From a virus, in the IMG/VR virus record IMGVR_UViG_3300046534_000306, positions 1-20,463 of that record: a stretch of DNA of 20,463 nt, one strand, 5' to 3'. Made by a program: the position numbers and the translations under genes. The notes beneath the pieces are model-generated. The model was not told where the DNA came from, did not search any database, and was given only the letters and a program-made list of their open reading frames with translations. Below are positions 1,912 to 11,094 of the stretch, piece after piece. How positions within the stretch are numbered: the stretch's first letter is position 1; each line of letters starts with the position of its first letter.

Positions 1912-3336
1912 ATGGCTTTTACACCAGGTGGGAATTGGGGGCAGGGTCGGCTATTAACTGGTCTGATTCCTGGTAGCTCTGAAACGGGTTTTGAAGCTGT
2001 CATCACGAAAGCGAACCTACCTACATCTGCATTAGATACTGGCCTTCTTTCATTAATAAATGGCGGGGGGGATTTTCGACTTAGTACAGATATAAACGGC
2101 TTTACTCAACTTCCAGTTGACATCGTTACTTGTGTAACTAACGCATCAGCAGCAAGCACAGAATTTATAGCGTGGGTAAGATTCCCAACTTATGCAAGCG
2201 GCACACGCTCAGTTTATGCGTTTTGGAACAAAGCAGGAGAATCACAACCAGCAGCCAACGCAGCGTTTGGTACTGAAGATGTATGGCAGGATAATGAATC
2301 AGCATGGCATTTAAACGACTTAACAGACTCCGCGGGTAATGCGACAAGTTTAACAACAGTTGGAACTCCTTCTACGGTTGACGGCGTGGTTGGCGACGGC
2401 AAAAGATTTGCAAGTAATTCAGATTATTTATATACCAGTACTGTTGGCGTAGTAGAAAACGACTCATTTAACATTTCGTTTTGGTATAAAAGACAAACAG
2501 GCGACTTATTAGCTGATGGAACAGCAATCGGTATAGCTGACAGTTCTAGTCCGTTTGGCAACTATGCTATTGAATTTGATATAGGAGCAGGCGACAATTT
2601 GATAGTTGAGGTGTATTCTAGAGATGTTTCAACTACTCCGAACGAAGTGTTTAGAATACCTAATTTTTTGGAAGGCGATAGCGTATTTGTATCTATAAAC
2701 CAAAATTCGTCTGGCTCATCAGCATCAGCAATTCATCAAGGAACAGTATACACAGGGTCAGACAGCGTTAGATTATTTGGAACAACTCCGGATAGACTAT
2801 CATTTAACAGGCTAATGGACTCTAGCCCAAACGCTGGTGATTTGATGGTTCTTGATGAGATACGACTAACCTCACCAGGAAACACAAAGAGCAGCGATAG
2901 AATAGAGCTTGAATATGATAACCAGTCTAACCCATCTACATTCTGGACGGCTGGTGCTGTATTTGTGCCTGGTGGCTCATCAATATCAGTAACTGCAACA
3001 CTTGGTACAATATCTTACTCAAGCAATGATACATCAGTAAGTGTTACTGGTTCAGTTGATGTAGTTGCAACTCTTGGTACGATATCATACGCAAGCAATG
3101 ACGCTGCAATAACTATATCAGGCGCAGTTGATGTTACTGCAACACTCGGAACAATATCATACACATCTAACAACCCATCTGTATCTGTTACAGGAATTAT
3201 ACCGATTGCAGCAACACTGGGAACAATCAGTTATACTAGCAACAATGTCACAGTATTTGTACAAGACGGCCAAGACATTGGAGTTGTTACAGCAACATTT
3301 AAGCCGAACTCAATAACAGTAAATTTTAGAGGATAA
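1912..3336 (+). CDS. Virion/adhesin-like protein: DUF2341 + LamG-like lectin domain + four 24-aa repeats
   Basis: A 474-residue protein. Residues about 15-125 match the DUF2341 pattern (GGDFRLSTDINGFTQLPVDI, then EFIAWVRFPTYASGTRSVYAFWNK). Residues about 128-350 match a concanavalin-like LamG fold (WHLNDLTDSAGN, VGDGKRF, FNISFWYKRQ, LDEIRL). This pair is common in carbohydrate-binding surface and phage appendage proteins. From residue 362 there are four tandem 24-residue units beginning ATLGTISY, then a degenerate fifth (VTATFKPNSITVNF). There is no signal peptide, which fits assembly onto a virion rather than secretion. It precedes the terminase genes, an unusual place for a fibre. The likely role is a head- or tail-attached fibre binding host glycans or serving as decoration; this is inference. 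The ribosome binding site is weak, so coupling to the upstream gene is likely. Confidence 0.7.
   Translation: MAFTPGGNWGQGRLLTGLIPGSSETGFEAVITKANLPTSALDTGLLSLINGGGDFRLSTDINGFTQLPVDIVTCVTNASAASTEFIAWVRFPTYASGTRSVYAFWNKAGESQPAANAAFGTEDVWQDNESAWHLNDLTDSAGNATSLTTVGTPSTVDGVVGDGKRFASNSDYLYTSTVGVVENDSFNISFWYKRQTGDLLADGTAIGIADSSSPFGNYAIEFDIGAGDNLIVEVYSRDVSTTPNEVFRIPNFLEGDSVFVSINQNSSGSSASAIHQGTVYTGSDSVRLFGTTPDRLSFNRLMDSSPNAGDLMVLDEIRLTSPGNTKSSDRIELEYDNQSNPSTFWTAGAVFVPGGSSISVTATLGTISYSSNDTSVSVTGSVDVVATLGTISYASNDAAITISGAVDVTATLGTISYTSNNPSVSVTGIIPIAATLGTISYTSNNVTVFVQDGQDIGVVTATFKPNSITVNFRG
2995..3282 (+). repeat. Four tandem 72-bp (24-aa) repeats inside the LamG-like protein gene
   Basis: Units start at 2995, 3067, 3139 and 3211, exactly 72 bases apart and all in frame, each encoding ATLGTISYxSNxxxxxVxG-like beta strands. 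The DNA differs between units mainly at third codon positions (for example CTT GGT, CTC GGA, CTG GGA for Leu-Gly). The peptide is therefore conserved while the DNA has drifted. Two or more beta strands per unit suggest a stalk of small Ig-like or beta-prism elements. Confidence 0.85.
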
Positions 3337-8812: not shown

Positions 8813-9970
8813 ATGGCTAATACCCTTACAGACCTAACCCCCGATTTATATCAAGCAATGGATACAGTATCACGCGAACAAGTTGGTATGATACCCTCTG
8901 TAACTCTTGACTCAAGCATTGAACGAGTCGCAGTTGGTCAGGTGGTTCGCTCTTTCGTAACTCCAGCCGTAACAGCTTTTGACATTACCCCAGCGGTTAC
9001 AGCTCCAAACGATGGCGATCAAACCATTGGCAATGAGTCGATGACAATCACCAAATCGCGGGGCGTACCTGTACGTTATAACGGTGAAGAACAACGAGGA
9101 TTAAGTTCAGGCGCAGGTTATCGACCAATCTTACAAGACCAGTTTGCACAGGCAATGCGTACATTAGTTAACGAGATGGAGTCAGATTTAACCGCACTAC
9201 ATGCAACTACTTCACGCGCATATGGAACGGCGGGCACGACTCCTTTTGCATCTGACCTAAGTGACACAGCCCAGTTATACAAAATTCTATCTGATAACGG
9301 TGCGCCACTTACAGAGCGTAAGTTAGTTATTGACACCTCAGCAGGTGCTAAAATGCGAACGTTACTTCAGTTAACCAAGGCAAACGAAGCCGCATCAACT
9401 ACCCTTTTACGTCAAGGTATTTTACTTGATATACATGGAATGGAAATCCGCGAATCTGCGCAAATTGTAACAACTGGAACGGATGTTATTACTGGCGCGG
9501 TTACTGTAACTGGTACTAATGCAGTCGGCGCAACGTCAATCGGTGTTACTACTGCTGCTGGCGCTGCTGTTGCCGCTCTTGCTGGCGATATCATTACTAT
9601 TGCGGGTGACACTAACAAATACGTTATTGCAACCACTGTGACAATTGGTGCGGGCACTACTGGAACAATCGTTCTTGCTGCTCCAGGCTTGCGAATTGCC
9701 AAAGCAGCAACAGCGGTAATAAGTGGCGTTACCGCTGCTGCTCGTTCAATGGCCTTTAACAAGTCTGCAATCGCTATTGCTACTCGTGCCCCAGCTAGAC
9801 CTGAAGAGGGCGACATGGCTGATGATGTAATGATGATTACTGACCCTCGCTCAGGCATCTCGTTTGAAGTTGCTTTATACAAGCAATACCGTCAGGTACG
9901 TTATGAAATCTCAGCCGCTTGGGGTGTTAAAAACTTCAAGCCGGAACACTCAGCCATTTTATTAGGCTAG
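8813..9970 (+). CDS. Major capsid protein, P22-coat-like with inserted domain
   Basis: The 385-residue coat subunit of the HK97 fold that forms the icosahedral shell. The start (MANTLTDLTPDLYQAMDTVSREQVGMIP) and segments such as SMTITKSRGVPVRYNGEEQ, LTALHATTSRAYGTAGTTPF and LLDIHGMEIRESAQI are the hallmarks of the P22-type coat family, as is the C-terminal ITDPRSGISFEVALY and KPEHSAILLG. Residues about 219-308 are a low-complexity, Ala/Gly/Thr/Val-rich beta region (TGTDVITGAVTVTG, GDIITIAGDTNKYVI). It is placed where P22 coat carries its insertion domain, which stabilises the folding monomer. The ribosome binding site is weak, but the gene follows the scaffold by 18 bases. A terminator follows. 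Confidence 0.93.
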   Translation: MANTLTDLTPDLYQAMDTVSREQVGMIPSVTLDSSIERVAVGQVVRSFVTPAVTAFDITPAVTAPNDGDQTIGNESMTITKSRGVPVRYNGEEQRGLSSGAGYRPILQDQFAQAMRTLVNEMESDLTALHATTSRAYGTAGTTPFASDLSDTAQLYKILSDNGAPLTERKLVIDTSAGAKMRTLLQLTKANEAASTTLLRQGILLDIHGMEIRESAQIVTTGTDVITGAVTVTGTNAVGATSIGVTTAAGAAVAALAGDIITIAGDTNKYVIATTVTIGAGTTGTIVLAAPGLRIAKAATAVISGVTAAARSMAFNKSAIAIATRAPARPEEGDMADDVMMITDPRSGISFEVALYKQYRQVRYEISAAWGVKNFKPEHSAILLG

Positions 9971-9985
9971 GTTTACTGAATAAAG

Positions 9986-10009
9986 AAAGGGGCTTAACTG
10001 CCCCTTTTT
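9986..10009. terminator. Intrinsic terminator after the coat gene, probably bidirectional
   Basis: An eight-base stem AAAGGGGC (9986-9993) and GCCCCTTT (10000-10007) with a six-base loop is followed by a T-run. It stops the rightward coat transcript. The A-rich left flank gives a U-rich tail on the other strand, so it can also end the leftward cassette at 10015-10822, which converges here. Confidence 0.85.
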
Positions 10010-10014
10010 GTTAT

Positions 10015-10188
10015 CTATTTATCGTGATTCTGCCCAATTATAAGCGGCATCGTAAGAGGCGCAAGAAGTAACACAACAAAGGCAGGCAAAGAAAGACCTT
10101 CACCAACGCTAACTAAATTCTTACCAACTTCACCAAGTGCATAAATATAGCTAACCCATAAATACAATATAAATACATCACTCATCAT
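10015..10188 (-). CDS. Small two-helix membrane protein of the leftward cassette
   Basis: A 57-residue protein below usual gene-finder limits. It starts with an ATGA overlap to the 100-residue gene (10185-10188) and ends at TAG 10015-10017, just beside the terminator. It has two hydrophobic segments, residues about 4-20 (DVFILYLWVSYIYALGEV) and 33-52 (LSLPAFVVLLLAPLTMPLII), joined by a polar loop (GKNLVSVGEG): a helical hairpin with both ends on the same side. That shape is shared by small holins and by many phage envelope proteins. It is shorter than typical class II holins, and no endolysin gene is nearby, so I do not call it a holin. Confidence 0.6.
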   Translation of the reverse strand: MMSDVFILYLWVSYIYALGEVGKNLVSVGEGLSLPAFVVLLLAPLTMPLIIGQNHDK

Positions 10189-10487
10189 TTAGCTCTCCAA
10201 AAGCTTTCGCCCGTAGCCTTGCCCGTTATAGCACCACCATTGCCTCCAATTACGTCGCTAGGTACATTACTCCCAAGCCCTCCGCTGCCATTGTATGGAA
10301 CATTCTTTAAACTATACTTATGTAATTTAAGAGTGTAATTATTAGCCTGTATTAGCTCCGCTTTAATATCAAGCAGCACAATTAACCGCTTATTAATTTT
10401 AAAATACCAGCAAAATACTTCACGTAATAATAAAAACACACCGATTGATATTGTTATTGATAAAAATATTATTTGAGGGTTATTCAT
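10185..10487 (-). CDS. Small membrane-anchored protein with RExxCWYxKxN motif
   Basis: A 100-residue protein. I choose the ATG at 10487 because AGGAG lies eight bases before it. The longer in-frame form would add 30 residues read in another frame through the neighbour gene. Residues 5-21 form one membrane helix (QIIFLSITISIGVFLLL), followed at once by REVFCWYFKINKR (22-34), then a helical segment and a glycine-rich tail (YNGSGGLGSNVPSDVIGGNG). A similar R-E-x-x-C-W-Y-[FW]-K-x-N stretch after a membrane helix recurs, from memory, in small bacterial membrane proteins of unknown role. It is the third gene of a four-gene leftward operon. Function unknown. Confidence 0.65.
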   Translation of the reverse strand: MNNPQIIFLSITISIGVFLLLREVFCWYFKINKRLIVLLDIKAELIQANNYTLKLHKYSLKNVPYNGSGGLGSNVPSDVIGGNGGAITGKATGESFWRAK

Positions 10488-10670
10488 GTTATTTACTCCT
10501 TTATTTAATACAAGTGAACCAAAACAATGAGCGAGCATAAACACCGCCTTGATATGTGCACTCTTGATAACCAGCAAACATATTCCAAAACATAGGTGTA
10601 AGTATTGCCATCATAATAATTACAGCTAACCATTCAATTTTACTTTTACTCTTGCGCATGTTATTTACTC
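10485..10670 (-). repeat. Duplicated 14-base translation-start sequence
   Basis: GAGTAAATAACATG occurs twice on the minus strand, at 10498-10485 and 10670-10657, each time forming the ribosome binding site, spacer and start codon of a cassette gene. The flanks differ. Either the leader was copied when a gene was duplicated or inserted, or the same initiation strength was selected twice. Confidence 0.8.
10501..10659 (-). CDS. Very small single-helix membrane protein with two cysteines
   Basis: A 52-residue protein. The N-terminus is basic (MRKSKSKIEW), then one hydrophobic helix spans residues about 10-28 (WLAVIIMMAILTPMFWNMF), then a short outer part with Cys34 and Cys50 (YQECTYQGGVYARS). 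By the positive-inside rule the tail should face the periplasm, where the two cysteines could form a disulfide; this is inference. Its GGAG ribosome binding site lies inside the last codons of the HTH gene. Its start region is a 14-base exact copy of that of the next gene. It is probably an envelope-acting accessory protein. Confidence 0.6.
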   Translation of the reverse strand: MRKSKSKIEWLAVIIMMAILTPMFWNMFAGYQECTYQGGVYARSLFWFTCIK

Positions 10671-10822
10671 TCCAGTTCATTAATCTTACTTATAAGCCGC
10701 TTGTGCATTGCATGACTATTTTTTTCCCACCTGCGATAAGTCCTAAGCGATATTAGGCTAACATCGCAGAATTGAGACAATGTGTAGCCTTTGTTTTTAA
10801 TCATCTTTGTCAGTATGTTCAT
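10661..10822 (-). CDS. Small HTH (Cro/CI-like) transcription regulator
   Basis: A 53-residue DNA-binding protein, first gene of the leftward cassette. The helix-turn-helix is at residues about 13-34: a first helix TLSQFCDV, a turn, then a recognition helix ISLRTYRRWEK ending in the RxWE pattern typical of XRE/Cro-like proteins. A short C-terminal helix (MHKRLISKINELESK) could dimerise it. It is a minimal form, shorter than usual Cro proteins. A strong AGAGGGG site lies six bases before the ATG. The direct repeats at 10836-10848 and 10867-10879 upstream are its likely operators, giving autoregulation. Its stop is followed directly by the next start, so coupling is tight. Confidence 0.72.
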   Translation of the reverse strand: MNILTKMIKNKGYTLSQFCDVSLISLRTYRRWEKNSHAMHKRLISKINELESK

Positions 10823-10835
10823 TATAAACCCCTCT

Positions 10836-10879
10836 ATTTGTCATCATTGGCATTACTTTAATTCACATTTGGCATCATT
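10836..10879. promoter_or_regulatory. Direct-repeat operator candidates upstream of the HTH gene
   Basis: ATTTGTCATCATT (10836-10848) and ATTTGGCATCATT (10867-10879) match at 12 of 13 bases and are 31 bases apart, close to three helical turns, so two proteins would bind the same face. A partial third copy (ATTGGCATTAC) begins at 10846. They flank or overlap the predicted leftward promoter and lie just upstream of the regulator gene. Confidence 0.5.
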
Positions 10880-10883
10880 ACAA
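10855..10883 (-). promoter_or_regulatory. Predicted leftward promoter of the accessory cassette
   Basis: Read on the minus strand, TTGTAA (10883-10878) and TAAAGT (10860-10855) are separated by exactly 17 bases and match 4 of 6 positions of each sigma70 box. One operator-like repeat overlaps the spacer and -35, and the other lies at the predicted start site. The boxes are imperfect, so the call rests partly on this arrangement. Confidence 0.35.
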
Positions 10884-10909
10884 GCGGTTCTTTAATTTAA
10901 TTAAAATAG

Positions 10910-10918
10910 TGCTATAAT
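10910..10918 (+). promoter_or_regulatory. Extended -10 promoter restarting rightward transcription
   Basis: TGCTATAAT is a perfect -10 with the TGn extension, 26 bases before the ATG at 10945 and downstream of the coat-gene terminator. The -35 region (about TTTAAT, 10891-10896) is weak and AT-rich. It would drive the connector and tail genes that the leftward cassette separates from the head operon. Confidence 0.6.
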
Positions 10919-10944
10919 GAGTAATCAAATAGTGGGGGCTTAAA

Positions 10945-11094
10945 ATGCACTGCAATACAGTAAAAATCAAAGACTATCCAAGCGGTTATTTAACCATTAA
11001 CGAAAGTGATTATAATCCAGAAGTGCACACTCTTTTTGTTGAAGGTGAGCCAGAATTCAAGACTGTAAAGCCAGTTAAGAAAACCCGCAGATAA
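10945..11094 (+). CDS. Very small head-region protein (coat-downstream family)
   Basis: A 49-residue protein with a strong GGGGG ribosome binding site. The sequence VKIKDYPSGYLTINESDYNP and the following VHTLFVEG resemble the short conserved ORF found after the coat gene in many tailed phages; the role of that family is unknown to me. The C-terminus is basic (KTVKPVKKTRR). Its stop shares a base with the next start. In other phages the homologue follows the coat gene directly, so the leftward cassette appears to have been inserted between them. Confidence 0.65.
   Translation: MHCNTVKIKDYPSGYLTINESDYNPEVHTLFVEGEPEFKTVKPVKKTRR

Follow-up and report, generated by a model that had tools for sequence, protein, structure and literature searches.

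HK97 gp15 is reportedly a superinfection exclusion moron, and the PeSL of T4-like phages are said to be mobile promoter-terminator cassettes (attributed to Arbiol 2010 and Comeau 2014). Morons of tailed phages have been defined (PMC6316719), acr-aca operons and their Aca repressors, Aca1-10, have been described (PMC9410906, PMC7648647), the PeSL cassette studies are cited in PMC4503421, and published YefM operators have TGTACA cores spaced 12 bp apart (PMC7730913). Here we analysed a linear viral record of 20,463 bases (the window), in which a cassette of four small antisense genes lies among the virion genes. We consider it to be, most probably, an autorepressed antisense moron that works in an acr-aca-like manner, its membrane-rich cargo being pulsed and then shut off.

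The genes of the window run rightward in the order TerS, TerL, portal, head morphogenesis, scaffold and P22-type coat, followed by head-tail adaptor, head closure, neck and tape measure. Upstream of the terminase genes, a 474-aa protein (1912-3336) carries about four C-terminal repeats of the type VTATLGTISYTSNNxxVSVTG. The cassette consists of four minus-strand ORFs (10015-10822) between the coat gene, which ends at 9970, and a rightward 49-aa gene (10945-11094), which is the immediate downstream neighbour of the coat gene at the cassette-free site, as judged by synteny with the relative L005. Its first gene encodes a putative autorepressor, a 53-aa HTH protein with a weak HTH_3 match (10661-10822). 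It is followed by c2 (10501-10659; 52 aa), predicted from hydropathy to be a single-pass protein with two Cys past the helix, by c3 (10185-10487; 100 aa), which is modelled as a membrane-type protein, and by c4 (10015-10188; 57 aa), for which hydropathy and a family alignment point to a hydrophobic protein with two hydrophobic segments. The genes are closely joined, with 1 nt between the HTH gene and c2, 13 nt between c2 and c3, and a 4-nt ATGA overlap of c3 and c4, and all are preceded by ribosome-binding-like sequences (GAGGGG, GGAGAG, AAGGAG and GGAGAG, in gene order); coordinates and gaps were checked and agree with an earlier sequence-only reading of this DNA. The frames, whose lack of conservation that reading had named as grounds for abandoning it, are kept in relatives with dN below dS in all four genes: ratios computed from dS and dN of pairwise relatives are about 0.2-0.4 for the HTH gene, 0.2 for c2 (the same in the comparison with L118; the L044 protein is 94% identical to c2), 0.2-0.5 for c3, and 0.6-0.7 for c4, which is the weakest case. 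The genes are very small, as might be expected of spurious shadow-frame ORFs in a chance layout, but conserved frames, purifying selection and a conserved promoter contradict this explanation, whose probability we regard as negligible.

At the coat border lies a bidirectional intrinsic terminator (9984-10009; stem-loops with T runs on both strands), and on the other side a rightward extended -10 restart promoter, TAGTGCTATAAT (10907-10918, plus strand), the only regular-expression match in the window; the sequence-only reading had placed the cassette between two such elements, and both were found. The site is empty in L005, whose coat protein and 49-aa gene are 83% and 86% identical to those of the window, and there nothing lies between the two genes but this terminator, then 30 bp, then this restart promoter. 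The cassette sits exactly between terminator and restart promoter, with its leftward -35 at the edge of the sequence shared with L005. Insertion at this point, which the sequence-only reading had suggested, can now be read from the empty site, and comparison at the sequence level shows that the cassette is an insert and its layout real. The terminator and restart promoter frame the site without proving an insert, because both also exist in L005.

About 40 related phages carry versions of this unit, hereafter islands, with different cargo elsewhere among their virion genes. Few islands have a clear 3' terminator (7 stems among 36), and most abut the next stop codon; the terminator at 9984-10009 may be part of the coat junction rather than of the cassette. 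The idea that islands are generally insulated, each ending in a terminator of its own, was rejected, since most have no 3' stem-loop. In most islands a divergent extended -10 is found 28-29 nt from the leftward -35, a spacing that hardly varies; a strict regular expression recovered 17 cases in 31 islands where 0.9 would be expected, and the majority of the remaining islands are off by one base. The co-oriented islands of L086 and L087 have a terminator-like stem in its place. At the adaptor/head-closure junction of the window there is no promoter and the genes overlap by one base, whereas the island-bearing L064, L066 and L118 have a restart promoter there, so at this junction the promoter arrived with the island.

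The leftward promoter-operator (10837-10884, minus strand) comprises a -35 (10883-10878), a 17-nt spacer and a weak -10, TAAAGT (10860-10855). A putative operator, O2, of the form TGCCA-N4-TGACA (class R; 10839-10852), lies just downstream of the -10, and a putative second, O1, is present between -35 and -10 as a minus-strand half-site TGCCA (10870-10874) whose second half is imperfect in the window. Island promoters in general have a -35, a 17-nt spacer, a -10, and half-sites forming palindromes TGNCA-N4-TGNCA or TGCA-N5-TGCA, which lie in the interval from -35 to -10 and across the start. Across the island family, operator half-sites occur 1.87 times per 110 nt, compared with 0.40 ± 0.095 in shuffles. 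With a 48-nt matrix built from island promoters, the window promoter-operator scores 56.7 and is the sole match above 0 in the window; scores upstream of 28 HTH genes were 36-62, with 11.9 for one more (L118), and the maximum in 940 shuffled sequences was -1.6. In the contigs of 12 relatives and in the window, matches fall at island starts only.

The recognition helix of the window HTH protein is LRTYRRW, with R31 as the class residue. Arginine at residue 31 goes with an operator C in 7 of 7 cases and other residues with A or T in 22 of 22, an association that a Fisher p overstates because the tree contains only about three switches and two to three independent pairs. Closely related helices change together with the operator (RTYRR vs RTYRT in L066; RTYRRR vs RTYRAR in L097 and L098; RSYRRY vs RSYRTY in L099), and we take this co-variation to suggest direct recognition rather than as a large-sample statistic. 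When 2.9 million viral contigs were scanned for the operator pattern, an HTH gene of the matching class followed every match that had a full promoter and sufficient downstream DNA; the scan tests specificity and adds few cases, because nearly all matched contigs were already known. Since cognate operators lie in the island's own promoter, a role of the HTH protein as repressor of its own island is supported in silico.

Like morons, the cassette has been added between two genes that are neighbours in a relative and forms an independent transcription unit with, as judged in silico, a promoter and a terminator of its own, although the latter is also present at the empty site. On the evidence of the L005 site and the matrix score, the moron interpretation of the sequence-only reading is supported insofar as the unit is inserted and brings its regulator, promoter and terminator. 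Unlike morons, the islands at many junctions have one repressor-operator family in common and dedicated autorepression. The 2.9 million viral contigs were scanned with alignments of c3 and of the HTH protein; together with profile searches this yielded 47 distinct HTH proteins, 41 of which are encoded in a run of small genes antisense to the flanking genes. In L092, L094 and L115 the HTH gene is co-oriented with its neighbours, beside a 417-aa gene outside the virion module, and has no island promoter. Thirty islands are closed on both sides; they span 0.6-3.7 kb (median 1.1 kb), have the HTH gene as first to third gene, and occupy the portal/terminase, scaffold/head-morphogenesis, coat/49-aa gene, coat/head-tail adaptor, adaptor/head-closure and other junctions. 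The five-gene antisense island of L010 (L093:5717-6738), at a scaffold/head-morphogenesis junction, has only the HTH gene and the promoter type in common with the window.

The four genes had been expected to travel together elsewhere. All four occur in L044/L064, but with an extra gene between the HTH gene and c2, and no other full set was found; L003 carries the HTH gene, c3 and c4. What the sequence-only reading missed is that islands headed by this repressor family are numerous, carry unrelated cargo and occupy many junctions, so that the unit is a regulated slot for cargo in general, not a single fixed set of four genes. Two HTH queries against 50,697 phage and 72,556 plasmid records gave nothing convincing (two weak local matches), a DNA search of phage records with the coat-to-neck region gave no match, and no description of antisense late-operon islands was found in the literature searched, with subscription papers mostly outside its reach.

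The likeness to acr-aca operons lies in a tiny putative HTH autorepressor (here a small single-domain protein of 53 aa encoded in an operon), in palindromes inside the core promoter (O2 past the -10, half-site O1 in the spacer), in swappable small partner genes, and in horizontal exchange of the locus. In contrast to acr-aca operons, the island HTH gene is among the first genes rather than the last, and here, where it is the first, no validated anti-CRISPR gene lies upstream of it; the islands also run antisense within virion operons and have a divergent restart promoter. An AlphaFold model of the 53-aa protein has four helices (pLDDT 88.7), and in structural comparison it comes closest to Aca1 chains (Z 5.6-5.9, the next being 4.7), a level at which fold alone proves nothing. 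Foldseek comparison of the model with the PDB and viral models gave nothing at E <= 0.001, and sequences of the family had no match at E <= 1 among PDB chains, including the Aca1 and Aca2 structures. No known anti-CRISPR was found among the island cargo with libraries that contain few such models. A true anti-CRISPR operon, with the HTH protein as its Aca and an anti-CRISPR among the small proteins, would fit the tiny regulator, its palindromes, the variable partners and the structural nearness to Aca1, but with the HTH gene in first place, membrane proteins as cargo, and neither a known Acr nor a sequence match to a solved Aca, we consider it very unlikely. Similarity to acr-aca operons is thus supported for regulation alone; we do not claim Aca membership, because no anti-CRISPR was identified and no sequence link was found.

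Island cargo amounts to 157 proteins in 96 clusters, 75 of them singletons, with c3 the commonest (15 islands) and c4 present in six. Membrane proteins make up 55 of the 157, whereas among 567 small phage proteins they number 87 (p 2e-7, or p 8e-4 when clusters are counted), an enrichment across islands that is not universal, as some islands carry soluble cargo. Known families are few (YopX, an AP2/HNH nuclease and two lipoprotein-like clusters); other Pfam and PHROGs matches are mostly coiled-coil noise, and the two PADLOC matches are both marginal. The earlier description of the cassette products as small membrane proteins agrees with hydropathy and with the model of c3, in which a single long N-terminal helix (residues 4-61, 58 residues) precedes a disordered tail. 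The N-terminal transmembrane helix of c3 runs into a helix with the motif RExFCWYFKIN, and the Gly-rich tail ends in ESFWRAK. In bacterial genomes c3 has seven distant MAG matches, which give no indication of a host. Since the RExFCWYFKIN motif occurs in spirochaete MAG contigs, c3 belongs to a wider uncharacterised family of small membrane proteins that is also found in bacterial MAGs; in two such contigs (L057:3194-3643 and L058:648-1052) the motif is fused to a Cys-rich, zinc-ribbon-like C-terminal part. A first search of viral contigs with c4 alone found no relative, and the alignment now contains 10 members, usually located 3' of c3. No family that would name c2, c3 or c4 was found in Pfam, PHROGs or NCBIfam. 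Three small hydrophobic proteins, one of them (c2) with a very weak match to a holin PHROG (E 0.22), might instead be holin, antiholin or spanin parts of a lysis module under separate control; given that no endolysin was found in the island, that c2, c3 and c4 come and go among relatives, and that other islands have soluble cargo, we regard this as highly improbable.

The preferred reading, an autorepressed antisense moron, builds on features observed in silico: the genes, their insertion, the promoter-operator, the repressor-operator match and the spread across junctions. The sigma-70-type leftward promoter (10884-10837) would fire on repressor-free DNA, most likely just after DNA entry, and leftward transcription would make the HTH protein and the three small membrane proteins. 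By binding the palindromic operators within this promoter, the HTH protein would then shut the unit off, so that cargo is made in a brief pulse. Leftward transcripts would end at the terminator without running into the coat gene, and beyond the cassette transcription of the virion genes would start again from the rightward extended -10 promoter. The most likely site of action of the membrane proteins would be the host envelope, where they might, for instance, serve superinfection exclusion or block an envelope-linked defence. It should be noted that HTH repression, timing and cargo function are the parts of this model that we infer. The cassette could also be expressed from a prophage and protect the lysogen, in the manner of HK97 gp15, and its own promoter and small membrane proteins do match classic prophage morons. 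However, we prefer a role in infection because tyrosine integrases are absent from 20 island-bearing records (up to 55 kb; the window and many of the records are fragments). No HTH homologue was found in 398 Pseudomonadota genomes either, a sparse sample searched without a positive control, and lysogenic conversion seems to us rather unlikely.

A further and more tentative possibility is that the divergent promoter pair toggles between early and late expression. With the leftward -35 (10883-10878) so near the rightward -35 region (around 10890), a polymerase on one promoter would be expected to block the other, and repression of the leftward promoter by the HTH protein would free the rightward one, making shut-off of the island and onset of virion-gene transcription a single event. 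Exchangeable repressors with different operators would then allow several islands to coexist in one genome.

Our comparisons point to islands as a common format in which accessory genes are plugged into phage genomes, one that has so far not been described. If so, the 48-nt DNA signature and the 53-aa marker protein could reveal cargo among the virion genes of uncultivated phages, much as aca genes were used for finding anti-CRISPRs, and the 96 cargo clusters, mostly without a known family, would be candidate counter-defence and envelope-acting proteins. The natural repressor-operator pairs of different specificities would provide a simple protein-DNA recognition system, and the islands would allow one to study how late operons tolerate opposing genes.

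Parts of islands seem to move between sites. Window positions 10341-10678 (c2 and the start of c3) are 94.7% identical over 338 bp to L044/L064, where the island is at the adaptor/head-closure junction, unlike the coat/49-aa site of the window, and the restart promoter regions are 88% identical over 50 bp. L071/L072 and L077/L099 have a portal/terminase site and restart promoter in common and differ in HTH, operator and cargo, which suggests allele exchange with a breakpoint near the leftward -35. As in the PeSL of T4-like phages, a regulatory cassette accompanies small-gene shuffling; a PeSL reportedly relies on an early promoter with a stem-loop, whereas the islands have a repressor gene with operators and lie antisense.

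Two HTH islands of different classes occur per record in G011 and G002, and the island repressors themselves appear to be interchangeable. In L049/L050 and one G005 island, a Phd/YefM-like gene (E 3e-9 and 0.003) is found with no HTH gene of the family, and in the promoters GTAC occurs three times, at intervals of 12 and 12 bp; within 349 kb of contigs this arrangement turned up a single time, at the G005 island. The 12-bp spacing resembles Phd/YefM autoregulation (PMC7730913); unlike in Phd/YefM systems, no toxin was identified beside the gene, and the Phd/YefM-like protein substitutes for the island HTH protein. On the single contig G005 (L131, L132 and L133), the portal/head-morphogenesis module is present twice, together with two HTH islands and a Phd/YefM-type island; the contig might be an assembly chimera, or two related phages might have been joined in it. 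HNH-type nucleases might aid island movement. The island of L085 contains an AP2-domain HNH-type gene, and a lone antisense HNH endonuclease gene lies between virion genes of G028 (L144:8891-9388).
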